From the NCBI RefSeq assembly GCF_039539005.1, contig NZ_BAABCP010000001.1, forward strand, positions 2,232,001-2,296,000: a stretch of 64,000 bases of DNA, given 5' to 3'. Source of the stretch: Microbacterium soli (GTDB taxonomy: Bacteria > Actinomycetota > Actinomycetes > Actinomycetales > Microbacteriaceae). Position 1 is the stretch's first letter; the number at the start of each line of letters is the position of its first letter. Below are positions 6,289-21,667 of the stretch, piece after piece. The notes beneath the pieces are model-generated. The model saw only the letters and a program-made list of their open reading frames with translations. It was not told the DNA's origin and searched no databases. Both the position numbers and the translations under genes were made by a program.

Positions 6289-6388
6289 GCCGCTGAAGGT
6301 GCCGAGTCGTCCGCATGCCCCGGGATGCCCGTGGGGGTGACGGGCGTCTTCGACGAGTGCATCACGGGGTGTGAGGACGGCGTGCGAC

Positions 6389-6471
6389 TCGACGCTCGTC
6401 ATGTTCTGGTCTATTCTGAGGACATATGAGCAACTATGTTGCTCATATGGCAACCACATATGAAAGGTTGC
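6389..6471 (+). promoter_or_regulatory. IclR-cluster promoter and operator 1 (ThDP enzyme gene)
   Basis: Proposed -35 TCGACG (6389-6394), 17-nt spacer, -10 TATTCT (6412-6417). Downstream lies operator GTTGC-N7-GCAAC at 6438-6454, with a further GCAAC half-site at 6430-6434, exactly 20 bp before the right arm. The region also forms a perfect 12-bp inverted repeat with 3-nt centre at 6423-6449 (arms start CATATGAGCAAC), and a third inverted repeat GCAACC/GGTTGC at 6450-6471. The same -35-to-half-site distance (41-42 bp) recurs at 9520 and 10794. The position over the start of transcription suggests repression. Confidence 0.7.
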
Positions 6472-6504
6472 TGATCCGCGGACTGGACACACGGAGGTGT
6501 TCTT

Positions 6505-8193
6505 ATGCTTGTCGCCAAACTGCTCGCACGTGAACTTGCTGAGGCGGGTGCTGCTTTCGTCTTCGGCATCCCCGGCAAGGAGTCCTTGCGCTTCTGCGCC
6601 GAGCTCGCAGAGGTGGGCATCACTTTCGTCGGTGCACGGCACGAGACGCAGGCGGTCATGATGGCCGACGGGTATTGGCGGGCGACGGGCCGCATCGGCG
6701 TGGCTCTGGTCGCACAGGGCGCCGGGCTGTCGAACGCCATCGGGGGTATGGCGTGCGCCGCGCGAGCGCGGAGCGGCGTGGTGGTCGTCACCGGTGATCT
6801 GCTGAAGGCGGATGCGGCGACGGGGCCGAGCTCTGAGGCGTTGATGGAACTGAAGGGGATCAACACCAGGGTCGCCTGTGAGTCCGTGTTCGTGGACTAC
6901 GTGCGACCCGCGTCGGGAGAGGCGGCGCACGCCGAGATCCGAGCTGCCTTGACTCGTGCGCGTGCCGGCCGGACGGTCGCGCTGGCCTTCCCCAGCGACA
7001 TCTTCTCGGCGGAAGCGGTCGAGCAGCAGGAGCTGCCCGCGTACGACGCGCAGGCAGAGGCCGCCGCCCCGTCGCCCGACGATGTCGAGATGATCGCCGA
7101 GCTCTTGACGAGCGGGTTCACAGCGCGACGCCCCTTGGTCATCGCAGGAAAGGGCGCCGTTCGCTCGGGGGCCATTCCCGCCATCCGCCGATTCGCTGAG
7201 GCGACGGGAGCGCTGCTGGCGACCAGCCTGCCCGCCCGCTCCTCGTTCGCGGGCGACCCGTTCAACGTCGGCGTCTGCGGCACGCTGTCGACGTCCGTGG
7301 GCAGCGGACTGATCGCACGCGCTGACTGCGTCATCGCGTTCGGTGCGTCGTTGAACCCGTTCACGACTTACGGCCAGTCCGTGTTCGCCAAGGATGCCCA
7401 GATCGTGCATGTCGACATCAACGAGGCCGCGCTGGGCAAGTACCTCGTGCCCGCCATGGGGGTGGTCGGGGATGCGGGTCTGACTGCCGAGGCGCTCACC
7501 ACCGCCGTCCTGTCGCGGGGTGGGCGTCGTGAGGGCTATCGCAGCGCTGAGATCGCCGCGCAGCTGGCGGAGTTCGACCCTGCCGCCGAGTTCACCGATC
7601 AGAGCACCGACGAGTTCATCGATCCGCGCACGCTGATGGTCGAACTGGACAGGGTTCTCCCCTCCGCCCGCACGCTCGTCGTCGACGCGGGACTGCACCT
7701 GCACAACGCGTGCTCGTTCCTGCAGGTCGAACGCCCGGAGGACTTCATCTTCCCCGTCGACTCGCTCGCGATCGGGCTCGGGATGGGCGCCGCCGTCGGA
7801 GCCGCGTTCGCCCGCGTCCGAGATCTCACCGTGCTCGAGGTCGGCGACGGCGGGCTGATGATGGCGCTGGGAGATCTCGACACCGCCATCCGGCATCGGC
7901 TTCCCATCGTCGTCGTCGTCAGCAACGACGAAGCATGGGGAGCCGAGGCCCAGCACCTCAACCTCCTCGGGGAATCCGATGACTTCGTCCGCCTTCCCAC
8001 GCCGTCCCTGGCGGAGCTGGCGGTGGCGATGGGCGCGGAGGGATACACCATCCGTTCGCGTGGAGACATCGAGGTCGTCGCGGATCGGCTGCGCGAGCCG
8101 CTCTCCGGCCCCATCGTCCTGGATTGCCGGGTCCATCCGGACATACAGCCGGAGTCATTCGAGTTCGACTACGCCGGCGTGTTCGCCAAGTAG
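6505..8193 (+). CDS. Thiamine diphosphate-dependent enzyme (acetolactate synthase/decarboxylase-like)
   Basis: 562-residue ThDP enzyme of the acetolactate synthase/benzoylformate decarboxylase superfamily. The N-terminal Pyr domain carries the cofactor-activating Glu47 in GARHETQAVMMADGY; a central Rossmann-like domain follows; the C-terminal PP domain has GDG near residue 447 and ND about 30 residues later, the Mg-ThDP motif. Such enzymes decarboxylate 2-oxo acids or carry out carboligation. First gene behind the operator-bearing promoter at 6389, with GGAGGT at 6493-6498 as ribosome-binding site. Its place in the IclR island suggests a catabolic 2-oxo acid decarboxylase rather than valine/isoleucine biosynthesis. 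Substrate unknown. Confidence 0.85.
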   Translation: MLVAKLLARELAEAGAAFVFGIPGKESLRFCAELAEVGITFVGARHETQAVMMADGYWRATGRIGVALVAQGAGLSNAIGGMACAARARSGVVVVTGDLLKADAATGPSSEALMELKGINTRVACESVFVDYVRPASGEAAHAEIRAALTRARAGRTVALAFPSDIFSAEAVEQQELPAYDAQAEAAAPSPDDVEMIAELLTSGFTARRPLVIAGKGAVRSGAIPAIRRFAEATGALLATSLPARSSFAGDPFNVGVCGTLSTSVGSGLIARADCVIAFGASLNPFTTYGQSVFAKDAQIVHVDINEAALGKYLVPAMGVVGDAGLTAEALTTAVLSRGGRREGYRSAEIAAQLAEFDPAAEFTDQSTDEFIDPRTLMVELDRVLPSARTLVVDAGLHLHNACSFLQVERPEDFIFPVDSLAIGLGMGAAVGAAFARVRDLTVLEVGDGGLMMALGDLDTAIRHRLPIVVVVSNDEAWGAEAQHLNLLGESDDFVRLPTPSLAELAVAMGAEGYTIRSRGDIEVVADRLREPLSGPIVLDCRVHPDIQPESFEFDYAGVFAK

Positions 8194-8300
8194 GCCGGGA
8201 TGCGAGCGGTGGAGCATCCGACCCAGAGCGCCTGCGGTCCTCGATCCTGGTGCGCTCAGAGAATCGGAGCATGCGTCCCGGCCCCGGTGAAGGGAGGTTC

Positions 8301-9374
8301 ATGATGACGATATGGGTTGTCGGAGCCGGTGCGATCGGCTGCATGGTCGGCGCGAGGCTCGCACAGTACGAGGACGTCGTGCTGGTGGACGGATGGAAGG
8401 AGCACGTCGACGCGATCAACGCTGACGGACTGCGGGTCGACTACCACGATGAGACGGTCACCGTGCGCAGCAGGGCCGTCGAGTTCGATGCCCTGGATGC
8501 CGTCGAGGAGACGCCGGACATCGTCCTGCTGAGTGTCAAGTCGACCGACACCGAAGGCGTCTTGCGAAAGATCGTGCACAGGCTGGGGCCGGAGTCCGCG
8601 GTGGTGTCCGTGCAGAACGGGATGAACGAGGAAGCCATCGCCGGCGTCGTCGGTGCGGAGCGCACGATCGGTGCGATGGTGACGGGCGACTCCGCGATCA
8701 TCGCGCCCGGTCATGCAGCGGCACGGATGGCGAAGCGCCGACTCGTCATCGGAGAGCTCGACGGGCGTGACACCCCCCGCATCCGCGCACTCGCCGAGCG
8801 TCTTTCGCAGTCGCTGCCGACGACCTGGACGGACAACATCATGGGCCAGTTGTGGACGAAGCTGGTCCGCAACTGCATGTTCAACGCTCTGGGTGCGCTG
8901 ACGGGCCTTGAGGCCAACCGCATCGCAGGGCATCCGGTCGCTCGCTCCGTCGCATTCGCGCTCGCGCGGGAGGCCATCCGGGTGGCTCTCGCCGAGGGCA
9001 TGACCCTGGACCCCGTGCTCCTGGGATCCGACGTCGCCGGATTCCTCGCCGAACCCGGTTCGGAGGCGGCTGAACGGGCGGCGCAGGAGTTCGAGAGGCT
9101 GTTCACGGCGTTGCCGAGCGTCAAGTCGTCGATGCTCCAGGACGTTCTGCGCGGACGGAGGACCGAGGTCGATCATCTCAATGGATTCGTCGTCGCCAAG
9201 GGGCGGACCTCGGCCGTGAGCACTGCGGTGAACGAGAGGGTCGTGGCTCTCGTGCATCAGGTCGAGAACGGGTCGCTCGAGCGCGGCGTCGATGTGCTGG
9301 GCGGTCCGCTCGTGGAGGACGAGGGTCTGCTCGGCGAGCGTGCGATCCTCGACCGCTTGCCTGCGGCGGGCTGA
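8301..9374 (+). CDS. Ketopantoate reductase-like (ApbA/PanE family) dehydrogenase
   Basis: 357-residue NAD(P)-dependent 2-hydroxy/2-oxo acid dehydrogenase-like protein. The N-terminal Rossmann motif is GAGAIG (residues 8-13), then SVKSTDT and SVQNGMNEE, both typical of ApbA/PanE proteins; the family Lys lies in QLWTKLVRNCMFNALGAL. True PanE proteins are usually about 300 residues, and the catabolic context argues against a role in pantothenate synthesis. The start at ATG 8301 is supported by GGGAGG at 8292-8297. It lies 107 bp after the ThDP gene and is followed by a strong hairpin, so these two probably form one transcription unit reducing or oxidising a 2-oxo acid intermediate. Confidence 0.85.
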   Translation: MMTIWVVGAGAIGCMVGARLAQYEDVVLVDGWKEHVDAINADGLRVDYHDETVTVRSRAVEFDALDAVEETPDIVLLSVKSTDTEGVLRKIVHRLGPESAVVSVQNGMNEEAIAGVVGAERTIGAMVTGDSAIIAPGHAAARMAKRRLVIGELDGRDTPRIRALAERLSQSLPTTWTDNIMGQLWTKLVRNCMFNALGALTGLEANRIAGHPVARSVAFALAREAIRVALAEGMTLDPVLLGSDVAGFLAEPGSEAAERAAQEFERLFTALPSVKSSMLQDVLRGRRTEVDHLNGFVVAKGRTSAVSTAVNERVVALVHQVENGSLERGVDVLGGPLVEDEGLLGERAILDRLPAAG

Positions 9375-9379
9375 CGGAC

Positions 9380-9454
9380 GGTCGCCGACCGGCCGTCCCG
9401 GGCGTCGGGTGCGGGCTCTTCCGCCGTGACCGCCGGGACGGCCGTTCGGCGACC
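9380..9454 (+). terminator. Long hairpin terminator after the ketopantoate reductase-like gene
   Basis: 22-nt arms 9380-9401 and 9433-9454 pair with one mismatch around a 31-nt loop. It separates the ThDP/reductase unit from the next promoter at 9520. No U-tract is evident, as is common in high-GC actinobacteria. Confidence 0.65.
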
Positions 9455-9519
9455 CCTCACGTCCGATTCCGAGGGGTGGTCGCGCCTCTCAGGCACTTCC
9501 CATCCGCCGTGTCGGATGG

Positions 9520-9586
9520 TTGACAGACCGTTGATGGCCTGCATATCATTTTGTCGTGTACGCAAACCTGATGCGTATACGGCAAC
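9520..9586 (+). promoter_or_regulatory. IclR-cluster promoter and operator 2 (TTT binding-protein gene)
   Basis: TTGACA (9520-9525), 18-nt spacer, TATCAT (9544-9549). Operator copies follow: TTTGT-N7-GCAAA at 9550-9566 and GATGC-N7-GCAAC at 9570-9586, right arms exactly 20 bp apart. The first right arm starts 42 bp after the -35, matching the 6389 and 10794 promoters. The remaining leader to 9716 is about 160 nt and holds no gene I can recognise; together with the hairpin at 9380-9454 this accounts for the 342-bp gap between genes. Confidence 0.75.
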
Positions 9587-9716
9587 AAATAGAGAATGTG
9601 ATCGGCGAGATGCTGAGCCCACAATTTCGAAACCGAGCAGTTCGTCGACGTCGATAGCTGAAGCCCGGTGCATCGCACTGAGCGAAGGATTTCGTTCGAA
9701 TGAGGAGGAGTTCATC

Positions 9717-10715
9717 GTGAGATGGAAGAAGAGTAGGTTCGGACGCGGCCTGATGGCCGCAGCCATGCTCACCGTGGCCGGTGTCATCGCCGCCGGGTGC
9801 ACGTCCGGGCCGAGCACGGGTGGGGGGACAGAGGGCGCGTCGGACTATCCGACTCGCAATATCGAGATCATGGTCGCCTTCGAGGGCGGGACCTCGGACA
9901 CCGTGGCGCGGATGCTGGCGCAGTACGCGAGCGCGGAGTGGGGTGTCAACGTCGATGTCGTGAACAAGGCCGGAGGGAACACGGTGCCGGCGAACCTCGA
10001 GCTCCAGGGGGATGAGCCGGACGGGTATTCCCTGATGTTCCATGCGATCGGCAGTTCGTCGCTGCTTCCGAACCAGCTGGGGGACGACCTTCCGTTCGAT
10101 GTGATGAACCAGACGTTCATCTCGCGCCTGAGCAGCAACACGATGCTCTTCCTCACGTCACCGGACTCGCCGTTCGAGACGCTGCAGGATGCCGCGGATG
10201 CCGCGAAGGCGGATCCGGAGCACTTCACCTGGTCGGCCACCGGTGTCGCCGAGATCCCCATGCTGCAGTTCTTCCGGTCCATCGGCGTCGACCCTCAGAA
10301 GACGAAGTCCCTGATCCAGGACGGCAGCGGTGATGCGATCGTCCTGGCGAACCAGGGTGATGCGGACCTGGTGATCGCCGCCGTGGGACCGTCGCTCGGT
10401 CCGGTGGAGGGCAATGTCGTCAAGCCGCTCGCGATCGCGGATGACCGCTGGCCGGGGCTCGATGTGCCCACCACGACGGAGGCCGGCTTCCCCGAGGTGC
10501 AGATCACCTCGTGGCTGGGGCTGGCGGGGCCGAAGGGGCTTCCGGACGACGTCGTGTCGGCCTGGGAGGAGCTCATCGAGAAGATGCTCGACGAGCCGGA
10601 CATCCAGGAGCAGCTGGAGAACGTCGCGTCGCGGCCGGCGTTCATGAACTCCAAGGACTTCACTGCGCATGTCCAGAGCGAGATAGAGGAGTTCGGTTCC
10701 CTGTACGAGGACTGA
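9717..10715 (+). CDS. Tripartite tricarboxylate transporter (TctC/Bug family) substrate-binding lipoprotein
   Basis: 332-residue extracytoplasmic solute receptor of the TctC/Bug family, which delivers carboxylates to the TctA/TctB membrane complex. Starts at GTG 9717 after GAGGAGG (9702-9708). A basic N-terminus, hydrophobic stretch and lipobox AAGC place the lipidated Cys at residue 28. The family-like opening YPTRNIEIMVAFEGGTSDT follows the linker, and a C-terminal LAGPKGLPDDVV segment is typical. TctA and TctB are encoded separately at 19215-21315 on the other strand, under a related operator. The ligand is probably an organic acid that feeds the surrounding enzymes. A 46-bp palindromic terminator follows. 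Confidence 0.88.
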   Translation: MRWKKSRFGRGLMAAAMLTVAGVIAAGCTSGPSTGGGTEGASDYPTRNIEIMVAFEGGTSDTVARMLAQYASAEWGVNVDVVNKAGGNTVPANLELQGDEPDGYSLMFHAIGSSSLLPNQLGDDLPFDVMNQTFISRLSSNTMLFLTSPDSPFETLQDAADAAKADPEHFTWSATGVAEIPMLQFFRSIGVDPQKTKSLIQDGSGDAIVLANQGDADLVIAAVGPSLGPVEGNVVKPLAIADDRWPGLDVPTTTEAGFPEVQITSWLGLAGPKGLPDDVVSAWEELIEKMLDEPDIQEQLENVASRPAFMNSKDFTAHVQSEIEEFGSLYED

Positions 10716-10730
10716 GCGCGTTCGCTGTCG

Positions 10731-10776
10731 GAGGCGATCGGCCGGGTGTGCTCGAGCACACCCGGCCGATCGCCTC
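10731..10776 (+). terminator. Perfect 46-bp palindromic terminator after the TTT binding protein
   Basis: Positions 10731-10776 read identically on both strands (centre CTCGAG), giving a long GC-rich hairpin followed by TTCTCT. It lies 15 bp after the stop codon and 17 bp before the next -35. Confidence 0.85.
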
Positions 10777-10793
10777 TTCTCTGCGCCGTCGCC

Positions 10794-10859
10794 TTGACAG
10801 AGCGAGGATACCTCGATAGCGTATTGACATCAGCGCAAACAGGTTGCAAATACGGCAAC
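10794..10859 (+). promoter_or_regulatory. IclR-cluster promoter and operator 3 (epimerase operon)
   Basis: TTGACA (10794-10799), 17-nt spacer, weak -10 TAGCGT (10817-10822). Operator GTTGC-N7-GCAAC at 10843-10859 and a half-site GCAAA at 10835-10839, right arms 20 bp apart, starting 41 bp after the -35. This matches promoters 1 and 2. A TATAAT at 10861-10866 lacks a suitably spaced -35 and is less likely the real -10. Confidence 0.7.
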
Positions 10860-10929
10860 ATATAATGCTCTGACGTGACGGATGCCGACGGCCCGTCGCA
10901 AGAACCGATCGACGAGGAGTGGAGTTCGC

Positions 10930-11925
10930 ATGTCCGTGATGCTGACCGGAGTCGGTGCTGTCGGGTCCCATGTCGCGCGGGAACTGCAGGCACAGGGTCA
11001 CGAGATCGTGATCTTCGACAAGTCGCCGAACCTTTCGTTCATCGGCTCGATCGCCGACATCACCGATGTTCCCGTCGTCGTGGGTGACGTGAACGACCAG
11101 GAAGCGCTGTCGGCGGCGGTTCGGGAGCACAAGGTCGACACGATCCTGCACCTCGCGGGCTTCCTGACCAAGACTCTTCGCGCCCACCCCTTCGCCGGTG
11201 TGAGCCTGAACATCGGAGGCACCGGTTCGGTGCTCGAGGTCGCGCGGAACACCGGTGTCCGGCGTGTGGTCCTCGCGAGCACTCGCGGCGTCAACCAGAT
11301 CGCCGCCGCCCCCGAATCCGGCGATGTGCTGCCGGAGGACTTCCAGATGCGGGTGATCAGCGACCGGCCGCGGACGATGTACGAGCTCAGCAAGCTGACC
11401 TGCGAGCACCTGGGACTGCTGTACGCGGACACCTACGACATGGAGTTCGTCGCGCTGCGTCTGGGCGGCGGGTTCGGCCCGACGCCCGGGGAGCCGGCGG
11501 GCCTGACGGGAACCGTGGTGCGCCCGCTCGTGTACGGAGCGGTGGCAGGGGGGCCGGTCGAGATCACGGATCCGTCGCTGACCTACGCGGGAAACCACGA
11601 GTTCATCTACTTCAAGGATGACGCCGTCGCGTTCGCGCTGGCCTGCACGCGACCGAACCTGTCGCAGCGGGTCTACAACATCCGCATGGACCGGACGTAC
11701 ACCTATGACCAGGTCGTCGAGACCATGCAGAAGATCTTCCCGGACACGGAATTCAAGATCTCCGCGACGAATTCGGGCTCCATGACCCAAGGGCGTGCAC
11801 CCCGCGATGACAATGCGTCGACGGAGGCCGCGTACAACGAATTGGGGTGGCGTCCGCAATACGATCTGGAATCCGGCGTGCGTGATTGGGTTCGCTGGAT
11901 CGAGAAATACGACATTTCCCGATGA
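10930..11925 (+). CDS. NAD-dependent epimerase/dehydratase (extended SDR), paralogue 1
   Basis: 331-residue extended SDR. Its nucleotide-binding loop is TGVGAVGS near residues 6-13, a GxGxxG spacing rather than the GxxGxxG usual in this family. Catalytic residues are visible as Ser in LASTRG and Tyr/Lys in YELSK. Related enzymes epimerise nucleotide sugars or oxidise sugar acids and lactones. Start at ATG 10930 after GAGGAGTGGAG. First gene of the run 10930-18324 behind operator 3; a second, related epimerase lies at 12370. Substrate unknown, but the context suggests a hydroxy acid or lactone rather than a UDP-sugar. Confidence 0.87.
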   Translation: MSVMLTGVGAVGSHVARELQAQGHEIVIFDKSPNLSFIGSIADITDVPVVVGDVNDQEALSAAVREHKVDTILHLAGFLTKTLRAHPFAGVSLNIGGTGSVLEVARNTGVRRVVLASTRGVNQIAAAPESGDVLPEDFQMRVISDRPRTMYELSKLTCEHLGLLYADTYDMEFVALRLGGGFGPTPGEPAGLTGTVVRPLVYGAVAGGPVEITDPSLTYAGNHEFIYFKDDAVAFALACTRPNLSQRVYNIRMDRTYTYDQVVETMQKIFPDTEFKISATNSGSMTQGRAPRDDNASTEAAYNELGWRPQYDLESGVRDWVRWIEKYDISR

Positions 11926-11955
11926 TTCATGGACACGAGATTGAAAGGTGCGAAG

Positions 11956-12324
11956 ATGAGTGACGTTTACGCCAAGGCGGAAGAAATCGTCCAAACCTAC
12001 CGCGGAGAATCCGGAACCCTGGGAAAGGGGATCAGCGGGCAAATGGCGCCGGAAGTGGAGCGGCGCAAGGATGAACTGCTCTGGGGAACCATCTGGGCGG
12101 ACCCCGCGATCGACATCAAGACGCGATCGTTGTGCACGATCAGCGCGCTGATGGCGTTGGGGATCGAGGAACAGCTGCTGAACCACTGCCGGTGGGCGCT
12201 GCACCTCGGCGTGTCCCGGGAGGCGCTCATCTCCCTCGCCAGCCAGATGATGGTGTACGCCGGGCTTCCGCGGGGGCACAACGCCATGCGCATCGTGAAG
12301 GAAGCGCTCGACAGCGCCGACTGA
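11956..12324 (+). CDS. Carboxymuconolactone decarboxylase (CMD) family protein
   Basis: 122-residue all-helical CMD-family protein. Family features include ERRKDELLWGTIW near the N-terminus, DIKTRSLCTISALMALG, and the HCRWALHLGVSREAL segment that carries the candidate active-site Cys and His residues. True gamma-carboxymuconolactone decarboxylase acts in the protocatechuate branch of the beta-ketoadipate pathway, but many homologues have other or unknown roles, and no ring-cleavage dioxygenase is encoded here. Start at ATG 11956 after GAAAGG. Lies between the two epimerase genes in the same operon. Confidence 0.85.
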   Translation: MSDVYAKAEEIVQTYRGESGTLGKGISGQMAPEVERRKDELLWGTIWADPAIDIKTRSLCTISALMALGIEEQLLNHCRWALHLGVSREALISLASQMMVYAGLPRGHNAMRIVKEALDSAD

Positions 12325-12369
12325 GCAGACACATCACATTCACTGCGGAAAGATCGAAGGAGTTCTGAA

Positions 12370-13368
12370 ATGACCGTACTCATCACTGGTGGCGTCGGGG
12401 CCATCGGAAGCAACGTCGCGAGAATGCTCGTCCAGCGGGGCGAGAAGGTCGTGATCTTCGACAGGATCCTGCCGAAGCCCGACAACACCATCATCGGCGG
12501 CTTCGGAGACCAGGTGGTCGCGGAGACGGGCAACGTCTCCGATCTCGCGACCATGCTCAACGTCGTCACTCGGCACGAGGTCGACGGCATCATCCACTGC
12601 GCGGCCATGCTGCCACCGATCGAGAACGACCTCCACCCGCTCGAGGCGATCCAGACGAACATCGTCGGAACCGCCAACCTCCTCGAGCTCGCCCGTTCGC
12701 TCAAACTGCGGCGCATCCTCGTCGCGAGTGCGGCGGGTGTGATGGGCCGTCCGTCCGATCTGAAGAAGCCTCAGGGCGAGACCGACATCTCTCTCCCGCT
12801 GGGCGGCATCTACCCGCTCACGAAGCTCACCTGCGAGCAGCTCGTGTACGCGTACCGGTCGCTGCACGGTGTGAACGCGACGGCCTTCCGCCCGCGCAAC
12901 GTCTATGGTCCAGGAGCCAACCCGCGCATCCAGCCGCTGTTCGAGGCCTTCTTCGAGGCGCTGAGCGGCAAGGACGTCATTCGTGAGCAGGGTGGCGACT
13001 CCGTCTTCGACTACACGTACGTCAAGGACATCGCGCTCGGCATCACCAACCTGTACCTGCATGACGGTGAGGGCCTCTACCACACCTATGGACTGTCCCG
13101 GGGCAGGAGCACGACGATGTCCGAGGCGTTCGAGGCGCTGCAGGCTGCGTTCCCCGAGCGCACCATTCGTATCGGCGACGGCCCCTGGAAGGGGGTCGTG
13201 GAGGGCGGCAAGGAGTTCCAGATCACAACCCACCCGGCCGAGATGCCGCCGCTGGACATCAGCCGTGCCGCGAAGGACTTCGGATTCGCGCCGGCGTGGG
13301 ACATCCATCGTGGCCTGGCCGATTGGCGCCGTTGGTTCGACACCGGCGAGTGGGGCTCGGAGGCCTGA
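12370..13368 (+). CDS. NAD-dependent epimerase/dehydratase (extended SDR), paralogue 2
   Basis: 332-residue extended SDR with the standard GxxGxxG loop in ITGGVGAIGS (residues 5-14), Ser in VASAAG, and Tyr/Lys in YPLTK followed by LTCEQL. It resembles paralogue 1 across its length (VVIFD, KLTCE, similar C-terminal DW motifs), indicating an old duplication. Start at ATG 12370 after GAAGGAG. Encoded between the CMD gene and the first cyclase-family gene. Two related dehydrogenase/epimerases in one pathway suggest consecutive steps or stereoisomeric substrates. Confidence 0.88.
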   Translation: MTVLITGGVGAIGSNVARMLVQRGEKVVIFDRILPKPDNTIIGGFGDQVVAETGNVSDLATMLNVVTRHEVDGIIHCAAMLPPIENDLHPLEAIQTNIVGTANLLELARSLKLRRILVASAAGVMGRPSDLKKPQGETDISLPLGGIYPLTKLTCEQLVYAYRSLHGVNATAFRPRNVYGPGANPRIQPLFEAFFEALSGKDVIREQGGDSVFDYTYVKDIALGITNLYLHDGEGLYHTYGLSRGRSTTMSEAFEALQAAFPERTIRIGDGPWKGVVEGGKEFQITTHPAEMPPLDISRAAKDFGFAPAWDIHRGLADWRRWFDTGEWGSEA

Positions 13369-13401
13369 GCGAGGACGGTCCGTACGGATCCGAAGAGGAG
13401 C

Positions 13402-14085: not shown

Positions 14086-14112
14086 CGGCGCCGGCCACCA
14101 TCCGCTGCCGTC

Positions 14113-14164
14113 CGATCGGCCGCGGGAGCGCACCCGCCCGGCGGCCCGCTCCCGCGGCCGATCG
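14113..14164 (+). terminator. Internal hairpin within the epimerase-dehydrogenase run
   Basis: Perfect 18-nt arms (14113-14130 and 14147-14164) around a 16-nt loop, in the 148-bp gap between the first cyclase gene and the FAH gene. It may terminate or attenuate transcription of the downstream half of the cluster, or protect the 3' end of the upstream message. No GTTGC-N7-GCAAC operator was seen between it and the next gene. Confidence 0.6.
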
Positions 14165-14233
14165 CGATCCGCCGGGGACGGCCTCCGGCAGGGACATGCA
14201 TCGCAGTTGTGAAGTCAATCGAAGGAGTTCCTC

Positions 14234-15211
14234 ATGAAACTGGTCACCTATCATCCGGTCGTCCCGCAGTACGTGGGAACACGGCTCGGAGTGTATGTCG
14301 ACGGCAGCATCGTGGACGCGAATTACGCATACGCTCTGAGCAGGCATCGTGCCGGAGAGGACGTCGCCGACCGGTCGCTCGTCGACGCGCAGGTCCCGAC
14401 CTGCATGCGCCGTCTGCTGGCGGGCGGCGACATCGCGCTCGAGCGGGTTCGGGAGGCGGTGGATGAAGCCGTGCGGATCGGCGCGGAGTCGGGTGCGGCC
14501 GGAGAGCGGCTGCGTTTCGGCGAGAGCGAGGTTCGGCTCCGCGCGCCGATCTCCCGCCCCGGCAAGATCCTCGCAGCGGGGAAGAACTATGCGGATCATG
14601 CCGCTGAGACGGCCGGGTCCTCGCCGGCACCCGCCGAGGAGAACCCCATACCGCGGGGCTTCGTGAAGGTGAGCTCGTCGGTGGTCGGCCCAGGGGACGA
14701 AGTCGCCATCCCGTCGGTGACCTCGCAGCTGGACTACGAGGTCGAGCTCGCCGTGGTCATCGGCAAGCGCGGCCGGTACATCAAGCGCGAAGACGTCTAC
14801 GACCACATCGCCGGATACACCATCCTGAACGACATCAGCGCCCGTGACATCCAGTTCCACGAGTCGGAGAAGGGCAACCATCTCATCGGCAAGAACATGG
14901 ACGGACTCGCCCCGATGGGCCCGTGGCTGGTGACCCGGGACGAGATCAGCGATCCGATGAAGCTTCAGGTGAGCATGGCGGTCAACGGCGAGGTCCGCCA
15001 GAACGCGAACACGTCGACGATGATCTGGGACATCCCGGCGCTCGTCGAACGGTGGTCATGGGGCACCCTCGAACCGGGTGACGTCATCGCCACAGGGACG
15101 CCGGCCGGTGGTGCGCTGAGCGGGAAGTACCCGTATCTGCGTCCGGGCGACGTCATGTCGGCATCGGTCGACGGTCTCGGAACCCTCGTGACACCGCTGG
15201 TGGCGGAATGA
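14234..15211 (+). CDS. Fumarylacetoacetate hydrolase (FAH) family protein
   Basis: 325-residue FAH-superfamily enzyme. The first motif is AAGKNYADHAAE near residue 114; the metal-binding Glu pair lies in DYEVELAVVIGKRG, followed by NDISARDIQFHESEKG and KNMDGLAPMGPW. The last two blocks resemble ureidoglycolate lyase and 2-hydroxyhepta-2,4-diene-1,7-dioate isomerase-type enzymes. Members hydrolyse, decarboxylate or hydrate 2-oxo or 1,3-diketo acids with Mg or Ca. Start at ATG 14234 after GAAGGAG. Its stop overlaps the start of the next cyclase gene (ATGA), indicating translational coupling. Confidence 0.9.
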   Translation: MKLVTYHPVVPQYVGTRLGVYVDGSIVDANYAYALSRHRAGEDVADRSLVDAQVPTCMRRLLAGGDIALERVREAVDEAVRIGAESGAAGERLRFGESEVRLRAPISRPGKILAAGKNYADHAAETAGSSPAPAEENPIPRGFVKVSSSVVGPGDEVAIPSVTSQLDYEVELAVVIGKRGRYIKREDVYDHIAGYTILNDISARDIQFHESEKGNHLIGKNMDGLAPMGPWLVTRDEISDPMKLQVSMAVNGEVRQNANTSTMIWDIPALVERWSWGTLEPGDVIATGTPAGGALSGKYPYLRPGDVMSASVDGLGTLVTPLVAE

Positions 15212-15867
15212 ACGCCGCGCACGGCGCCGGCGGCGTGGTGATCGACCTGTCGTTGCCCTTCGACCCCGACGTGTACCCGTCGTTGGATCTGACGGTGACG
15301 CACGAGGCCGACGGCACGCGCCCCGGGGGCATGGAGTTCCGCTTGGGGAACCACATCGGCACCCATCTGGATGCCCCCTCCCATCTCGTTCCCGGCGCCG
15401 CCACGATCGATCAGCTGCCGCTGGAGCTGTTCGTCGGCGAGGGGGTCGTGCTCGATCTCCCGCGTGGTGAGAACGAGGCCGTGACGGCCTCTGATCTGGA
15501 GGGGACCGACATGGTCCGTGCCGGCGGCGACATCGTCTTCGTCGGCACGGGCTGGGATGCTCGGGTCGGACAGCCCGAGTACGCCAGCCATCATCCGTAC
15601 CTCAGCGAGGACGCAGCGCACTGGCTGGTCGAGCACGAGGTCCGCATGGTGGGGATGGACGTCCAGAGCGTGGATCTCGGGCACTCGCTGCGCGCCGAGG
15701 GATTCCGCTACACCTCGCTGAGGATCCTGCTGGAGGCGGGGATCCCCGTGCTGCACAGCATCGCCAGGCTGGGCGAGGTCGGGACCCGGCGATGCATGCT
15801 CGCGGCCGCGCCGATCGGGTTCCTCGGAGCCGACGGCGCACCCGCTCGTGCATACGCGCAGTATTGA
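15208..15867 (+). CDS. Cyclase family protein, paralogue 2
   Basis: 219-residue metal-dependent hydrolase of the cyclase superfamily. The signature HIGTHLDAPSH is at residues 49-59 with His49, His53, Asp55 and His59 as likely ligands. It is related to the protein at 13402 (both carry the LPLELFVGE / FPLETFVGE block after the signature) but is diverged, so the two probably act on different intermediates. It overlaps the FAH gene by four bases (ATGA) and is followed closely by the alpha/beta hydrolase gene. Confidence 0.87.
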   Translation: MNAAHGAGGVVIDLSLPFDPDVYPSLDLTVTHEADGTRPGGMEFRLGNHIGTHLDAPSHLVPGAATIDQLPLELFVGEGVVLDLPRGENEAVTASDLEGTDMVRAGGDIVFVGTGWDARVGQPEYASHHPYLSEDAAHWLVEHEVRMVGMDVQSVDLGHSLRAEGFRYTSLRILLEAGIPVLHSIARLGEVGTRRCMLAAAPIGFLGADGAPARAYAQY

Positions 15868-15901
15868 CCACATCGACCACGTTCCCAAGGAGGATGAAGA
15901 C

Positions 15902-16840
15902 ATGCTGACCAGAGAAGAGATCGTCGGACTATCGCCTGCCACGCCGCAGGATGTGCATTTCTACAGCGCCGGTCACAAGATCCGCGCATTCTGGTATCCA
16001 CCGGCCAATGGGGACCAGAACGCTCCGGCGATCGTCTGCGGACATGGCTTCTCGGGGATGATCGGGCTCCAGATGGTCGGGGTGCCCGAAGCCCTGAGCC
16101 TCGCCGGGTACGGGGTGCTCACCTACTACAGCCGCGGTATCGGCGAGAGCGAGGGTCCCCGCGGTCGTGTCATCCCCCGGGAGCAGGTGGAGGACATGCG
16201 CAATGCCGTGACCTACGTGCAGAGCCGCGATGACGTCGATCCGGATCGGATCGGCGTGTTCGGCAGCGCATGGGGGTGCAGCATCGCGGTCGCCGCGGCC
16301 GCCGAGGACGAACGGATCAAGGCGCTGGTCGGCACGGTCGGGATCGGCGATTGCGAGCGCTGGCTTCGCAGTGAGCGTCCGCGCTGGGAGTGGAAGGCCT
16401 TCCTGGATCGGATCGCGGAGGATCGGCAACGGCGAGTGCTGACGGGGAAGTCGGAGGTCGTGAACCCCAACGAGATCCACATTCCGGATCGTGCCGCATC
16501 GGAAGCGAGGGACCGGCAGTGGCGGGAGTTCTGCGAGAAGTCCGGATACGACGGCTACCCGCTCGAGACGGCCGAAGCGGTCATCGAGTTCAAGCCCGAG
16601 GAGATGGTCGCGCGCATCGCGCCGCGAGCTGTGATGTTCGTGCATATGAGCGAGGACATGACGGTCCCTCCGGAAGAGTCGAAGAGCCTCTATGAGAAGG
16701 CCGGTGAGCCGAAGAAGCTGCTGATCCCGAAGGGACCGCACTATGACATCTTCTGGTTCCGCAATCCTGAGGTCTTCGCAGATTTCATGGTCGATGCCAT
16801 CGACTGGCTCGACACGCATGTGAAAGGAATCGAATCATGA
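15902..16840 (+). CDS. Alpha/beta hydrolase fold protein with Ala at the nucleophile position
   Basis: 312-residue alpha/beta hydrolase related to dienelactone hydrolase/X-Pro peptidase-like proteins. The oxyanion region is VCGHGFSG; the nucleophile elbow reads GSAWG (residues 121-125), so the central position normally held by Ser or Cys is Ala123. A candidate acid (in SEDMTVP) and base (in KGPHYD) are present. Start at ATG 15902 after AAGGAGG at 15887-15893. It overlaps the aldehyde dehydrogenase start by four bases (ATGA). It may be a non-hydrolytic lyase, a binding protein, or an inactive relative; alignment would be needed to exclude an atypical nucleophile. Confidence 0.83.
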   Translation: MLTREEIVGLSPATPQDVHFYSAGHKIRAFWYPPANGDQNAPAIVCGHGFSGMIGLQMVGVPEALSLAGYGVLTYYSRGIGESEGPRGRVIPREQVEDMRNAVTYVQSRDDVDPDRIGVFGSAWGCSIAVAAAAEDERIKALVGTVGIGDCERWLRSERPRWEWKAFLDRIAEDRQRRVLTGKSEVVNPNEIHIPDRAASEARDRQWREFCEKSGYDGYPLETAEAVIEFKPEEMVARIAPRAVMFVHMSEDMTVPPEESKSLYEKAGEPKKLLIPKGPHYDIFWFRNPEVFADFMVDAIDWLDTHVKGIES

Positions 16841-18324
16841 CGACATCGACGGGTTCGACGATGCAGAGGTTCGAGTTGTGGATCGACGGCGAGTTCGTCC
16901 CTGCGAAGAGCGGGCGCACGTTCGAGCGGCACAACCCGTACGACGGCTCCCTGGCGGCCGTGTTCGCCAATGCGGGGGAGGACGACGCACAGCGGGCGAT
17001 CGACGTCGCCCGCGAGGCGTTCGACAACGGACCCTGGCGTCGCACCAGCGCCAACGAGAGGTTCCAGATCCTCAGCCGTGCCGCGCAGATCCTCAGGGCT
17101 CGCGAGGATGAGTTCGCCCGGCGCATGGCGGTGGAGTCGGGAAAGGCGATGCAGGTCGGTCGCGGCGAGCTGCGCACCGCGGTGCGCACCTTCGAGTATT
17201 ACGCCGGCGCGGCGCTCGACATCGAGGGGTCCTCCATCGTGGACCGCGTCGAGGACGGATTCGGGATGGTGCTCAAGGAGCCGGTCGGCGTCGTCGCCAT
17301 CATGTCCTCCTGGAACTTCCCGATCGTCAACCCGACGGTGAAGATCGCCGCTGCCCTGGCAGTGGGATGCACGATCGTGTGCAAGCCCTCGCATCGGTGC
17401 TCGGGGCCCGTGATGCTTCTCGCCGAATGTCTCGCCGAGGCGGGGGTGCCCGCCGGGGTGTTCAACGCTCTCACGAGCGACATCGATCGCGGCGGCCTTG
17501 TCGGCTCCATCATGGCGACGTCGCCGAAGGTGGACAAAGTGGCGTTCACCGGCTCCTCGCGGACGGGTGCGACGGTCATGAAGGCGGCGGCCGACACCAA
17601 CAAGCCCGTTGTCCTGGAACTGGGCGGAAAATCCGCGAACATCGTGTTCGCGGATGCCGACCTCGACCTGGCTGCGCGCGTGTCGGTGCGTGCCTTCACG
17701 AACAACTCCGGCCAGCAGTGCTCTGCGGGGACGCGTCTCCTCGTGGATTCCCGTGTGCACGATGAGTTCCTCCAGAAGCTCATCGAGTACGCGTCGAGCA
17801 CTGAGACGGTCGGCGATCCGCTCTCGGAGGACACCACCATGGGCCCTCTCGTCGACCAGCAGCACTTCGACAGTGTGGTGGAGTACATCTCTCTGGCCGC
17901 GCAGGAGGGAACGGTCGTCGCCGGCGGCGTCCCCTCGGACGAGGACGCTTCCCGCCTGCTCGTGAGGCCCACGATCGTGGATGGCGTGGACAATTCCGCG
18001 CGGATCGCTCAGGAGGAGATCTTCGGCCCGGTGCTGTCCGTCATCTCCTTCGACTCCGAGGCGGATGCCATCCGCATCGCCAATGATTCGGACTACGGCC
18101 TTGCGGGCGGGGTGTGGACCCGCTCGATCGATCGGGCACTGCGTGTCGTGCGGGGAGTCCGCACCGGCAAGATGTTCGTCAATGGCTACAACAATGTGGG
18201 GATCGATGATCTTCCGCATGGCGGCTACAAGCGGAGCGGGATCGGCCGCGAGCAGGGGCGGATGGGCCTGGAGGAGTACCTGGAGGCGAAGACCGTACAG
18301 ATCAAGCTGGCGCCGGAGAGCTGA
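16837..18324 (+). CDS. NAD(P)-dependent aldehyde dehydrogenase
   Basis: 495-residue aldehyde dehydrogenase of normal length. NAD-binding SWNFPIVNPTVKIA near residue 152, FTGSSRTGA, catalytic Glu in LELGGKSANIVF near residue 262 and catalytic Cys in GQQCSAGT near residue 296 are intact. It oxidises an aldehyde to the acid in the cytoplasm, a fitting last step after ThDP-dependent decarboxylation of a 2-oxo acid. Translationally coupled to the hydrolase gene by an ATGA overlap. Last gene of the plus-strand run; a shared terminator separates it from the convergent iclR-type gene. Confidence 0.93.
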   Translation: MTTSTGSTMQRFELWIDGEFVPAKSGRTFERHNPYDGSLAAVFANAGEDDAQRAIDVAREAFDNGPWRRTSANERFQILSRAAQILRAREDEFARRMAVESGKAMQVGRGELRTAVRTFEYYAGAALDIEGSSIVDRVEDGFGMVLKEPVGVVAIMSSWNFPIVNPTVKIAAALAVGCTIVCKPSHRCSGPVMLLAECLAEAGVPAGVFNALTSDIDRGGLVGSIMATSPKVDKVAFTGSSRTGATVMKAAADTNKPVVLELGGKSANIVFADADLDLAARVSVRAFTNNSGQQCSAGTRLLVDSRVHDEFLQKLIEYASSTETVGDPLSEDTTMGPLVDQQHFDSVVEYISLAAQEGTVVAGGVPSDEDASRLLVRPTIVDGVDNSARIAQEEIFGPVLSVISFDSEADAIRIANDSDYGLAGGVWTRSIDRALRVVRGVRTGKMFVNGYNNVGIDDLPHGGYKRSGIGREQGRMGLEEYLEAKTVQIKLAPES

Positions 18325-18346
18325 TCTCACGGCGGAGTTCGACACC

Positions 18347-18377
18347 GTGGCCCTCCCGAGCATCTCGGGAGGGCCAC
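18347..18377. terminator. Bidirectional terminator between aldehyde dehydrogenase and IclR genes
   Basis: Perfect 14-nt arms (18347-18360 and 18364-18377) with a 3-nt loop, 22 bp after the dehydrogenase stop and 7 bp before the convergent IclR stop. It can serve both strands. Confidence 0.8.
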
Positions 18378-18384
18378 GAGTCGT

Positions 18385-19188
18385 TCAGCTGACGGTGTCG
18401 GACCAGATCCGTCGGGCGGCCGTGCTGGCGTCCTCGAGTTCCTTCACCAGTCGCGGGTGATCCTCGACCGAGAACCTCGTCGAGGGGTAGGAGAGGCTGA
18501 GCCCGAGTGGGAAACCGGTGACGTTCGTGGCTATGACCATGCCGATGCCGGAGATGGTCGTCTCCGTCTCCCCGGTTGACAGCGAGTAGCCGCGCTCCCG
18601 CGTCGCCTCCAGATGCCTCAGGAACGCCTCGGGATCCCGGATCGTCTCGGGGGCGGAAGCGGGAAGCAGCCCGCCGACCAGCATCGAGTTCACGATACGG
18701 CGGCGCTCCGTCTCCGGCAGCGCCGCCAGGAGGGCTTTGCCGATCGCCGATATATGGACGTAGCGGCGCTCCCCGGGGGACGCGACGACGCGCAGCATCC
18801 CACCGCCGACGCTCACCGCGAGGAAGCTCACGAAGGCACCCTGCAGGGTGCCCAGCTGGGCCGTGGCGTTCGTGCGCTCCGAGAGGTCCTGGAGGATCGG
18901 CTGGAGGGAGCTGCCGAGGTTCGCCGCTCCGAACCTCGTCCCGACCTCGAAGGCGACCGGGCCGATGAAGTAGCGGCGCGTGTCCGAGCGCAGCACGAGG
19001 AATCCCTCGGCGGCGAGAGTGGCCATCAGTCGTGAGATGACGGACTTGCTGACTCCGAGCTCATTGGCGACCTCGGTGACCGTCCAGCCGTTGTCGTGAC
19101 CGACGAACATGCGGAGGACCTGGAGGGCCCTTTGCACCGAAGAGAGTTTTCGAACCCCTTCACCGACTGGAGAAAAGTCACCGTTCAC
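18385..19188 (-). CDS. IclR family transcriptional regulator
   Basis: 267-residue IclR-type regulator. The N-terminal winged helix-turn-helix (VQRALQVLRMF, then TVTEVANELGVSKSVISRLM near residues 36-55) is followed by the effector-binding domain (residues about 95-260) with HISAIGKALLAALP and SISYP-like end segments. Starts at GTG 19188 with AGGAG upstream. It is the last gene after TctB and TctA on the minus strand, 26 bp after tctA, so it is likely made from promoter 4, which carries a match to the operator shared by the island. It is the only local-type regulator in the island and the obvious candidate to bind GTTGC-N7-GCAAC, probably as a repressor. Confidence 0.92.
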   Translation of the reverse strand: MNGDFSPVGEGVRKLSSVQRALQVLRMFVGHDNGWTVTEVANELGVSKSVISRLMATLAAEGFLVLRSDTRRYFIGPVAFEVGTRFGAANLGSSLQPILQDLSERTNATAQLGTLQGAFVSFLAVSVGGGMLRVVASPGERRYVHISAIGKALLAALPETERRRIVNSMLVGGLLPASAPETIRDPEAFLRHLEATRERGYSLSTGETETTISGIGMVIATNVTGFPLGLSLSYPSTRFSVEDHPRLVKELEDASTAARRIWSDTVS

Positions 19189-19214
19189 CGAAAAACTCCT
19201 TTTTCTGGGAATGT

Positions 19215-20720
19215 CTAGCTGGCTTCTTCCAGCATCTCCTCCCGGTGCTCAGTCGGGATGACTCTTCTCAACCTCACGGACACGGCGATTATAGCAATGG
19301 TCAGAATAAGGATGATGAGCGGGACAGGCGTGCTGACCAGCGTTCCGAGACCATTGGGAAGGCTCAGAGTCTGAGCAAGTCTGGCTTCGATCATCGGCCC
19401 GATGATAAGTCCGAGAATAAGCGGGCTGAGCGGCCAATGTGCTTTTCTCATGAGGTAGCCGATCACACCGAAGACGATGGTCACCCAGACATCGAACATG
19501 CTGTTCCGGGTCGAGTACGAGGCGATGATGCAGACGGCGAGGATCGCGGGTCCCATGTACTTGATCGGGATGACGCTGATCTTCGCCCAGAGCCCCACGA
19601 GGGGCAGGTTGAGGACGAGGAGCATGACATTGCCGATGTACATGCTGCCGATGATCGCCCAGGCGATGCCCGCATTGTCTCCGGTGAACAGGAGAGGGCC
19701 CGGCTGCAGCCCGAACATCATGAAGGCGGCCATGAGGATCGCCAGCGATGAGGTCGTGGGGATGCCGAGGGACATCAGCGGGATGAAACCCGCCTGTGCG
19801 TTCGCGTTGTTCGCGGCCTCAGGAGCTGCGACGCCTTCTATGGCTCCCCGCCCGAATCGTTCCGGATGCCGGGAGACGCGCTTCTCGAGGTCGTAGGCCA
19901 TGAACGAGGCGACGGCGGGGTTGGCGCCGGGCAGGAGGCCGAGCGGGAAGCCGAGCGCAGTGCCTCGCAGGATGCCCGCGAATCCGCGCTTGAGCTCCTT
20001 CCCGCGTGGCATCATCTTCCCCAGCGGGCCGCTGTGGAAGCTCTTGATGCCGCTCTCCGCGCTCATGAGCACTTCTGTGACTCCGAACAGGCCGACGATG
20101 ATGGGGACCAGCTCGAGCCCTTCGCGCAGCACGCCGATGCCGAACGTCATCCGCAATTGACCGCCGGAGACCTCGTCGACGCCGACGCTGATGAGGACCA
20201 TGCCGAAGGCCGCGGCGCCGATGGCCTTGATCACGGACCCCTCGTTGAGGCAGATGACCGCCACCAGGGCGAACACGAGCAGGGCGAGGTACGCCGCGGG
20301 GGTGAACGAGAGCGCGAAGCGGGCGAGGGTCGCACCGACGAGCGTCAGCAGGATGAGGCCGATTGTTCCGGCGAAGAAGGATCCCACGGCCGAGATCCAC
20401 AGCGCCTGCCCCGCGCGTCCCTTCTTCGCCATGGGGAACCCGTCGTACGTGGTGGGGATGCTGGCCACCTCGCCGGGGATGTTCGCGACGATGGCGGTGG
20501 TCGATCCCCCGTACATCGCACCGTAGAAGACGCCCGCCAGCATCGCGATCGATGCACCCGGATCTCCGAACAGGAGGGTCACCGGCAGGAGCATTCCGAT
20601 CGTGGCGGAGGGGCCGAGCCCGGGAAGGACGCCGACCAGTGTTCCGGCGAGGACGCCGATCAGCGCACTGATCAGATATGAGGGCTGGAGTGCGTCCAGA
20701 AGTCCGTTGATGATCTCCAT
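19215..20720 (-). CDS. Tripartite tricarboxylate transporter, TctA family permease
   Basis: 501-residue polytopic membrane protein of the TctA family, the large pore subunit of TTT carboxylate importers. Characteristic motifs are LPGLGPSATIGMLLP near residue 32, FYGAMYGGSTTAIVANIPGE near residue 66, and SLGIPTTSSLAILMAAFMMFG. About 11-12 hydrophobic segments are visible. Works with the TctB subunit encoded 55 bp upstream and the TctC-type lipoprotein at 9717. Substrate unknown; the family includes citrate, tricarballylate and terephthalate systems. Confidence 0.93.
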   Translation of the reverse strand: MEIINGLLDALQPSYLISALIGVLAGTLVGVLPGLGPSATIGMLLPVTLLFGDPGASIAMLAGVFYGAMYGGSTTAIVANIPGEVASIPTTYDGFPMAKKGRAGQALWISAVGSFFAGTIGLILLTLVGATLARFALSFTPAAYLALLVFALVAVICLNEGSVIKAIGAAAFGMVLISVGVDEVSGGQLRMTFGIGVLREGLELVPIIVGLFGVTEVLMSAESGIKSFHSGPLGKMMPRGKELKRGFAGILRGTALGFPLGLLPGANPAVASFMAYDLEKRVSRHPERFGRGAIEGVAAPEAANNANAQAGFIPLMSLGIPTTSSLAILMAAFMMFGLQPGPLLFTGDNAGIAWAIIGSMYIGNVMLLVLNLPLVGLWAKISVIPIKYMGPAILAVCIIASYSTRNSMFDVWVTIVFGVIGYLMRKAHWPLSPLILGLIIGPMIEARLAQTLSLPNGLGTLVSTPVPLIILILTIAIIAVSVRLRRVIPTEHREEMLEEAS

Positions 20721-20775
20721 GAATTCTGTCCTTCCCGCTTGGAGCGAACCGAGGCGTGCAGGTCGTGCCGGGCTT

Positions 20776-21315
20776 TCAGATGTTGAACAGGTCGAACAGT
20801 CCGGTGGGCATGCGCACGCGGAGCAGATAGATGAACACGAACACCAGGACCGCGGAGAGGCCGACGGTCATGATGACGAGAGGGAGGATCTTCCGGACTC
20901 CGAAGATGATGCTCGCGCTGAGGAAGAAGATCGGAGTGGCGAGGACGTAGCCGAGCACGGCGATGAGGACGCCGTAGCCCACGAGTGCTGCGATCAGCCA
21001 GAGAAGCCGAGACATGAGACCGTTTCGCACCGGAGGCGCGACGTCCTCGTCCCCGGTGCCGGCATCGTCCACGGCATCCGGCGCGGTCTTCGGGGCCTTG
21101 ACGATCAGTGTGACCAGATAGCCCACCCCGCTGGCCAGCAGGAGCACGGCGATGAGGATCAGGTACCAGCCCGGTTTCAGGACCTGATTCATTCGGAAGG
21201 CGGGGGGATTCAGCGACAGCCGAATGCCCTCGAACAGCGAGATGACACTCACGACGATGAAGATCAACGCTGTCGTGACGTCCTTGCCATCAATCGTCCG
21301 GGATCCTATGCGCAT
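20776..21315 (-). CDS. Tripartite tricarboxylate transporter, TctB family small membrane subunit
   Basis: 179-residue protein with four hydrophobic helices (residues about 15-32, 47-70, 100-128, 135-165) and a charged central loop, matching the small TctB subunit of TTT transporters. First gene of the minus-strand unit tctB-tctA-iclR. Start at ATG 21315 with AAGGGGAA upstream on the minus strand. The unit is separated by about 10 kb from its substrate-binding protein gene, but both promoters carry related operators. Confidence 0.87.
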   Translation of the reverse strand: MRIGSRTIDGKDVTTALIFIVVSVISLFEGIRLSLNPPAFRMNQVLKPGWYLILIAVLLLASGVGYLVTLIVKAPKTAPDAVDDAGTGDEDVAPPVRNGLMSRLLWLIAALVGYGVLIAVLGYVLATPIFFLSASIIFGVRKILPLVIMTVGLSAVLVFVFIYLLRVRMPTGLFDLFNI

Positions 21316-21667
21316 GTCATCGTTCCCCTTGCTTCTCGTCGCTGAGTCGGTGATTCTCGGGTTGGTGATTGCTATCCGGCTTGGTGCCGTAGAAGAAATC
21401 GGGTTGTCGCAAAAGCAACGATATCAAGAGGGTCTCGTGTCGTCAACATGGCGATTCGACACTCGCAGGCGTGCGCCGTTTCGTCGCCGGCATCGCGAGG
21501 GGACCGGCTCGGCCGTGATGGAGCCAGTCGGCGTCGCCCGAGCCGCCGCGGAGTGCGGCGTCTGCTCGGCTGATCCGGCTCGTGACGTCCTATGACGACG
21601 TGATTGGATCGGACCGGGCATGGCCGAATACCGTTTCGGGACCCCCACGAGAGGAAGAACCCGAACC
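21316..21667. other. Divergent intergenic region between TctB and metQ genes
   Basis: This 352-bp gap holds the minus-strand promoter and operator of the tctB operon (21403-21446). The half nearer metQ (21447-21667) should contain the metQ promoter and leader, but I see no clear -35/-10 pair and no recognisable SAM riboswitch or T-box. No credible small gene was found. Confidence 0.5.
21403..21446 (-). promoter_or_regulatory. IclR-cluster promoter and operator 4 (tctB-tctA-iclR)
   Basis: On the minus strand: TTGACG (plus 21441-21446), 17-nt spacer, TATCGT (21418-21423). The operator GTTGC-N7-ACAAC (21403-21419) begins inside the -10 and its right arm starts 39 bp after the -35. It is one base off the consensus GTTGC-N7-GCAAC and lacks the second copy 20 bp away seen at the other three promoters. 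Confidence 0.7.

Follow-up and report, generated by a model that had tools for sequence, protein, structure and literature searches.

Two types of binding site have been described for regulators of the IclR family, which the comparative survey of Suvorova and Gelfand (2021; PMC8222616), covering 181 orthologous groups, gives as GKTYCRYW3-4RYGRAMC (group 1) and TGRAACA-N1-2-TGTTYCA (group 2). For 32 orthologous groups the same survey predicts three boxes of alternating direction, arranged so that one pair makes up a type 1 site and the other pair a type 2 site, and it names PcaU, PobR and HmgR as the regulators from which three-box sites are best known (PMC8222616). Here we describe an element of this kind in a 64,000-nucleotide stretch of the Microbacterium soli genome (contig NZ_BAABCP010000001.1, positions 2,232,001 to 2,296,000; hereafter the window, within which all plain coordinates are given). 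The element is shared by four promoters of one catabolic cluster and is real, and the cluster is a new example of the IclR-type three-box operator, a kind of control that is already known. From the sequence, we think it probable that the IclR-family protein encoded at 18385-19188, within the cluster itself, uses this element as its operator.

Individual regulators offer a closer comparison. As summarised in PMC8222616, PcaU, PobR and HmgR resemble the system described here in combining a palindrome with an external direct half-site, which is required for binding by PcaU, but they differ in box sequence, the PcaU box for example being TTTGTTCGATWATCGMACAMA. PheR is the IclR repressor of the phn operon in Sphingobium sp. 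SHPJ-2, is released by its ligand and, according to the published account, protects 44 bp across the start site, from -21 to +23; GCAACG is given there as the essential core, in which a change to GCAAAG is tolerated and a change to ACAACG weakens binding (PMC13273656).

The element and its placement at four promoters

Direct reading of the plus strand identified the pattern GCAA(C/A)-N3-G(T/A)TGC-N7-GCAAC at three putative operators, O1 (6430-6454; GCAAC-TAT-GTTGC-TCATATG-GCAAC, 15/15 box bases), O2 (9562-9586; GCAAA-CCT-GATGC-GTATACG-GCAAC, 13/15) and O3 (10835-10859; GCAAA-CAG-GTTGC-AAATACG-GCAAC, 14/15). O1 precedes the genes for a thiamine-pyrophosphate enzyme and an ApbA-type reductase, O2 precedes tctC and O3 a run of eight genes, while a fourth site, O4, is found on the minus strand in front of tctB-tctA-iclR. 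The original prediction had recognised a GTTGC-N7-GCAAC-type motif at all four promoters, and both the motif and its coordinates proved correct; it had also allowed for one- or two-base variants, and variants do occur, but none of the four sites needs two changes (0 mismatches at 6438, 1 at 9570, 0 at 10843 and 1 at 21403). Correspondingly, the 17-bp palindrome of the group 1 type (GTT-11-AAC) is present at all four, being exact at 6438 and 10843 and carrying one mismatch at 9570 and 21403. For the three plus-strand promoters a further arm had been noted that precedes the last one by exactly 20 bp and starts 41-42 bp past the -35, and this is where we find it: at 6430 (GCAAC), 9562 (GCAAA) and 10835 (GCAAA), respectively 41, 42 and 41 bp from the start of the named -35. 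With this arm, boxes 1 and 2 form a palindrome of the group 2 type, GCAAC-N3-GTTGC, which is exact in O1 (6430-6442) and partial elsewhere (8/10 bases at 9562, 9/10 at 10835 and 7/10 at 21407-21395). Boxes 1 and 2 of O1 also lie inside a perfect inverted repeat, 6423-6449, with 12-bp arms and a 3-bp centre.

This layout is that of the published three-box sites. The group 1 form GTTYC-N7-GRAAC and the group 2 form GRAACA-N1-TGTTYC, overlapping as described in PMC8222616, match the arrangement seen here, and our overlay of the two published consensuses yields GRAAC-N3-GTTYC-N7-GRAAC, with the same box order and spacing as in the window sites. In addition, the centre of the 7-bp spacer reads ATA in each of O1-O3, in agreement with W3 of the published consensus (PMC8222616). 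The box core, GTTGC/GCAAC, departs from the published GTTYC/GRAAC by G for Y at position 4 and C for R at position 14, the published consensus being a family average. Since the GCAACG core of PheR has been found by experiment to be bound (PMC13273656), a GCAAC core outside the consensus is nevertheless acceptable for an IclR protein. The PheR 44-mer can be parsed, in our three-box reading, as CGTGC-TATACAT-GCAAC-GC-GATGC-ACCATAT-GCAAA, and thus shares with the window sites the GCAAC core, boxes of GCAAC/GATGC/GCAAA form, the 7-bp spacer and a weak fourth half-box upstream, together with a similar placement over the start site. Applied to this published 44-mer, our box model scores 13/15 when boxes 1 and 2 are set 2 bp apart; among 20,000 base shuffles, for which gaps of 2-4 were permitted, one did as well. 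PheR differs from the window in that gap (2 bp as against 3 bp) and in the number of promoters described, one rather than four. The base tolerances reported for PheR agree with the GCAAA boxes of O2 and O3 and with the ACAAC box of the weak O4.

The promoters themselves are of unequal quality. P2 (9520-9549, plus strand; TTGACA-18-TATCAT) matches 11 of the 12 consensus bases, and P4 (21418-21446, minus strand; TTGACG-17-TATCGT) has an extended TG; both were found by a promoter scan, which is itself weak evidence, as it returned 3 sites in 6200-22000 against 1.4 (standard deviation 1.6) in shuffles. The scan missed the putative promoters P1 (6389-6417, plus strand; TCGACG-17-TATTCT), which is weak by consensus, and P3 (10794-10822, plus strand; TTGACA-17-TAGCGT), which has a weak -10. 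P1 presumably drives the thiamine-pyrophosphate enzyme gene and the ketopantoate-reductase-like gene, and P4 presumably drives tctB-tctA-iclR. Directly ahead of P3 lies a perfect GC-rich palindrome of 46 bp (10731-10776, plus strand), followed by TTCTCT, which to the eye is probably the terminator of tctC but which is absent from the terminator-scan list; since this palindrome follows tctC, O3 probably heads a new transcription unit. In P1, P2 and P3, box 1 begins 13 nt past the end of the named -10. Because this distance is constant while the -35/-10 spacers vary (17, 18 and 17), the operator appears to be aligned with the -10, and with the start site presumed from it, and not with the -35, although the constancy is suggestive only, since P1 and P3 have weak hexamers and the start sites, some 7 nt past each -10, are predictions. 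At P4, box 1 begins 11 nt past the -10, and the additional box upstream of it shares the final two bases of that hexamer.

This fourth site was analysed with a matrix built from O1-O3 and run over all 127,952 window positions on both strands. In leave-one-out tests, which do not depend on the degenerate letters that were picked after the sites had been inspected, each held-out site of O1-O3 ranked 3 of 127,952, right behind the two training sites, with scores of 23.9, 25.7 and 29.5 bits as compared with 12.6, 17.3 and 16.4 for the next best. The full matrix placed 21407-21383 on the minus strand at rank 4, next after its own three sites, with 14.6 bits; when 101,612 further bases of the same genome were scored, the highest value was 11.0 bits. 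Read in the orientation of its own promoter, this three-box form is ACAAC-N3-ATTTC-N7-GCACC, with spacers CCG and TTCTACG. Together with a perfect GTTGC box upstream (21415-21419), it gives a putative four-box operator, O4 (21383-21419, minus strand; GTTGC-TTTTGCG-ACAAC-CCG-ATTTC-TTCTACG-GCACC, 16/20 box bases), in which two degenerate palindromes stand in tandem, their centres separated by 20 bp. The original prediction had given the extra arm to the three plus-strand promoters, where it is indeed found in each, and so implied its lack at the fourth, where the matrix detects a degenerate arm; the plus-strand register taken from the two arms that had been named there (21395-21419) ranks only 46 by the matrix.

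Distribution of the element in the genome and its relatives

The two-armed motif by itself was rejected as evidence. With no more than two mismatches it occurs 25 times in the window, where 100 shuffles average 27.7, and with no more than one mismatch it occupies 46 places genome-wide, where a reversed control has 139 (the motif is its own reverse complement, and so the genome count is given as places). Because there is no excess of the bipartite motif, it is the clustering and the third arm that count. Four of the 46 places fall within 15,058 bp, where 0.22 would be expected (P about 9e-5). The full three-box pattern, the degenerate letters of which were set after the sites had been seen, has three exact matches in the 3,116,214-bp genome, all of them in the cluster. 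Allowing a single mismatch adds no further site and allowing two adds 41, and there was no match in 300 first-order Markov simulations of the 64-kb window. Thus the genome-wide motif search called for by the original prediction found the exact sites to be confined to the cluster, and not equally frequent at unrelated promoters.

These counts bear on the possibility that the sites arose by chance, or represent a duplicated promoter segment of no regulatory meaning. Besides the ordinary frequency of the bipartite motif, it could be said for this view that the three-box pattern is no commoner than its reversed control once two mismatches are allowed (44 in all versus 125), and that the same is true of 98 other genomes of the genus, which together hold 4 matches, at most one per genome, versus 11 for the reversed control. 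Three exact matches in a single cluster, with none elsewhere in the genome or in the simulations and never more than one in a congener, are hard to reconcile with chance, while the spacers between the boxes and the flanks differ among the sites, so that these are not recent copies of one another; we give this explanation next to no credence. Two of the four congener matches (G1535 and G1502) are identical in sequence, the copy in G1535 lying within long open frames; that in G1512 is inside an open frame, near its start, and that in G1485 coincides with the start of an open frame judged by eye to be recombinase-like. No comparable gene setting was seen at the three of these matches that were inspected (G1535, G1512 and G1485).

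A different function was considered for the palindromes, namely that they work as hairpins of the 5' leader RNA, through attenuation or effects on mRNA stability, and not as DNA operators. Leaders 1 and 2 do fold better than all of 200 shuffles (z -4.2 and -3.5, respectively). However, for leader 3 (z -1.7) 11 of 200 shuffles folded as well, and for leader 4 (z -0.4) 63 of 200 did so, even though the element, or part of it, is present in both; the feature common to the sites is box sequence and spacing, not a stem, and any long palindrome yields a hairpin. An RNA hairpin was therefore rejected as the common feature, being significant in leaders 1 and 2 only, and we regard this explanation as very improbable. 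The inverted repeat of O1 could also form a hairpin in the leader RNA, and leader 2 has a 9-bp hairpin.

The IclR protein of the cluster as the proposed binder

The protein encoded at 18385-19188 (267 aa) scores well above the Pfam cut-offs for both halves of an IclR regulator (PF09339, 52.4 bits against a cut-off of 22; PF01614, 97.6 bits against 24), and its nearest PDB sequences are IclR-type proteins. All 14 called genes in 6.3-21.5 kb were scanned with Pfam, and this is the sole regulator among them. An identity as BhcR was rejected: the best-scoring regulator model, NF045644 (NCBIfam), gives 128.6 bits over 15-256, far under its curated cut-off of 350. Because the exact sites are confined to a cluster whose only regulator gene is iclR, the IclR protein is the probable binder. 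This had been put forward in the original prediction, and the published three-box geometry, the likeness to PheR, the sole regulator and the confinement of the sites to the cluster all speak for it, so that, on sequence grounds, we strongly infer that the element belongs to the cluster's own IclR protein.

In the control that we propose, the four transcription units would together make up the cluster, and a dimer or tetramer of IclR would bind along one face of the helix, the arms being 20 bp, or about two turns, apart. Bound at, over or just downstream of the -10, it would block RNA polymerase at all four promoters and would limit its own synthesis through the weaker fourth site. Binding of the transported carboxylic acid, or of a metabolite derived from it, to the C-terminal domain would then cause IclR to leave the DNA, so that uptake and catabolism are switched on together. 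Such a system would be a well-bounded IclR regulon with a defined predicted operator, regulator, transporter and enzymes, and its operator could be used for regulon mapping, for ligand discovery and for testing why some IclR proteins use three boxes; in other respects it would amount to ordinary local control of a catabolic cluster.

The sites provide a natural graded set of operators, with 15/15, 13/15 and 14/15 box bases in addition to the four-box site with 16/20. It is conceivable, if rather unlikely, that IclR uses two overlapping dimer registers (boxes 1 and 2, or boxes 2 and 3) differently at each promoter, giving graded inducer thresholds. If so, a single repressor would set different thresholds for the transporter, the enzymes and itself in response to the same inducer, and the alternative dimerization that has been proposed for IclR proteins would be directly testable within one regulon.

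The same three-box literature raises the question of whether IclR, bound at these sites, instead activates transcription or plays a dual role, activating as well as repressing, in the manner of PcaU and PobR. These two proteins include activators, and one PDB entry near the IclR protein is named p-hydroxybenzoate hydroxylase transcriptional activator. They are also among the regulators, with HmgR, that define the best-known three-box sites. Yet the sites of the cluster lie downstream of the putative -10 at three promoters and over it at the fourth, positions that point to a block of the polymerase, and PheR, with a similar footprint and placement, is described as a repressor (PMC13273656). We therefore hold activation to be distinctly improbable.

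Several results weigh against the reading of the element as an operator of the cluster's IclR protein. The promoters P1 and P3 are weak by consensus; O4 is degenerate, and its best register came from the matrix and not from the motif of the original prediction. The PheR footprint, as published, reaches only 9/15 at the 3-bp gap of the window sites, and the reported sufficiency of one of four PheR subfragments for a shift (PMC13273656) gives no support for a need for the outer boxes. The genome search for HTH_IclR returned 30 matches, and, with 18 weaker ones set aside, there are 11 strong matches other than the cluster's own (E up to 1e-7), any of which could in principle bind the element. Upstream of these 11 genes the generic three-box geometry was not significantly enriched (2/11, against 28/540 background tiles or 8/61 low-GC tiles, the tiles taking in the window's own sites and the regions of the paralogs). 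Finally, no orthologous cluster was found in the samples searched, which leaves the element without a phylogenetic footprint.

The abundance of paralogs speaks for a real operator that belongs to another regulator, whether a further IclR-type protein or a member of a different family. Within a few kb, the cluster is flanked by a CGNR/ABATE protein at 3878-4420 and by a MarR protein at 25293-25796, and geometry cannot assign IclR-type operators to one paralog. Weighing on the other side are the restriction of the exact sites to a cluster with iclR as its sole regulator, the fourth site at the promoter of the presumed iclR operon, and the three-box layout, which is a trait published for the IclR family (PMC8222616). 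Furthermore, three paralogs with IclR-type palindromes upstream, identified by eye and not counted as proof, have other box sequences. Taken together, we judge a different regulator to be improbable.

Two of these paralog upstream regions carry AT-rich tandem palindromes 20 bp apart, which are candidate operators of those paralogs, with boxes of the TGTTC/GAAC and ATTTC/GCGCAAT types at L102 (G000:C1:574070-574110) and L100 (G000:C1:1651745-1651785). The third (L098, G000:C1:1083926-1083950), which precedes a further IclR HTH by about 110 bp, has a perfect GATGC-N7-GCATC palindrome and a weak third box, and is one of the 41 three-box matches with two mismatches.

The search for relatives was made in samples that overlap, scoring per genome only the best few candidates (at most 5-8). 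Among 299 genomes of the family, 394 of the class and 396 of the phylum, only its own genome gave a match to the regulator at E up to 1e-40 or 1e-45, and, with E up to 1e-90, the first NAD epimerase of the cluster was likewise found in 1 of 398 family genomes, its own. In the order sample, at E 1e-30, the regulator was found in 3 of 396 genomes, which adds two proteins of 37-38% identity; the locus of one of these (L090, 3.7 kb) has a different gene setting. A word-based search of 5.8 billion proteins (E up to 1e-30) gave 9 matches to the regulator, one being the window's own, with the nearest of the others 71% identical and further ones 57% and 51%. Searches of genome contigs by protein yielded 76 pattern stretches, none of which was a relative, and 167 relatives, of which the best 80 are 23-37% identical. 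On plasmids, 1362 records matched the regulator, all at less than 60% identity, and two cluster enzymes had no match (E 1e-40 and 1e-60).

Genes of the cluster

The first unit comprises a thiamine-pyrophosphate enzyme of the acetolactate synthase / benzaldehyde lyase superfamily (6505-8193, plus strand) and an ApbA/PanE-type, ketopantoate reductase-like dehydrogenase (8301-9374, plus strand; scanned as 8307-9374), and is followed by tctC, encoding the solute-binding protein of a tripartite tricarboxylate transporter (9717-10715, plus strand; PF03401). The eight same-direction genes at 10930-18324 (plus strand), presumed to form one operon, encode in order an NAD epimerase, a carboxymuconolactone-decarboxylase-like protein, a second NAD epimerase, a cyclase, an FAA hydrolase, another cyclase, an alpha/beta hydrolase and an aldehyde dehydrogenase. 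Next to these, on the minus strand, lie iclR (18385-19188; HTH_IclR and IclR_C, a presumed repressor), tctA (19215-20720; PF01970) and tctB (20776-21315; PF07331). TctA, TctB and TctC all score above their Pfam cut-offs, and thus the cluster encodes a complete tripartite tricarboxylate transporter.

The enzymes encoded in 6505-18324 match broad families only and fit no pathway that could be named. TctC and TctA are, we presume, COG3181 and COG3333. Both COGs are given in the survey of IclR regulogs as functionally associated with genes of aromatic metabolism, and GTT-11-AAC-type sites are said there to be commoner with sugar and sugar-acid genes and less often found with aromatic ones (PMC8222616); by analogy, the site type may serve as a weak hint to the substrate class. 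Among the matches listed for the open-licence PMC literature, which include a Vibrio paper on a tripartite tricarboxylate transporter (PMC13390454), the cluster is undescribed as far as the listings show. Its GC content is 65.3%, compared with 68.1% for the window, and the cluster looks accessory. Elsewhere in the genome (L104, G000:C1:1569784 and 1569834), two copies of GTTGCTGTATGCGCA stand at a distance of 50 bp, surrounded by more GCAAC/GTTGC half-sites.

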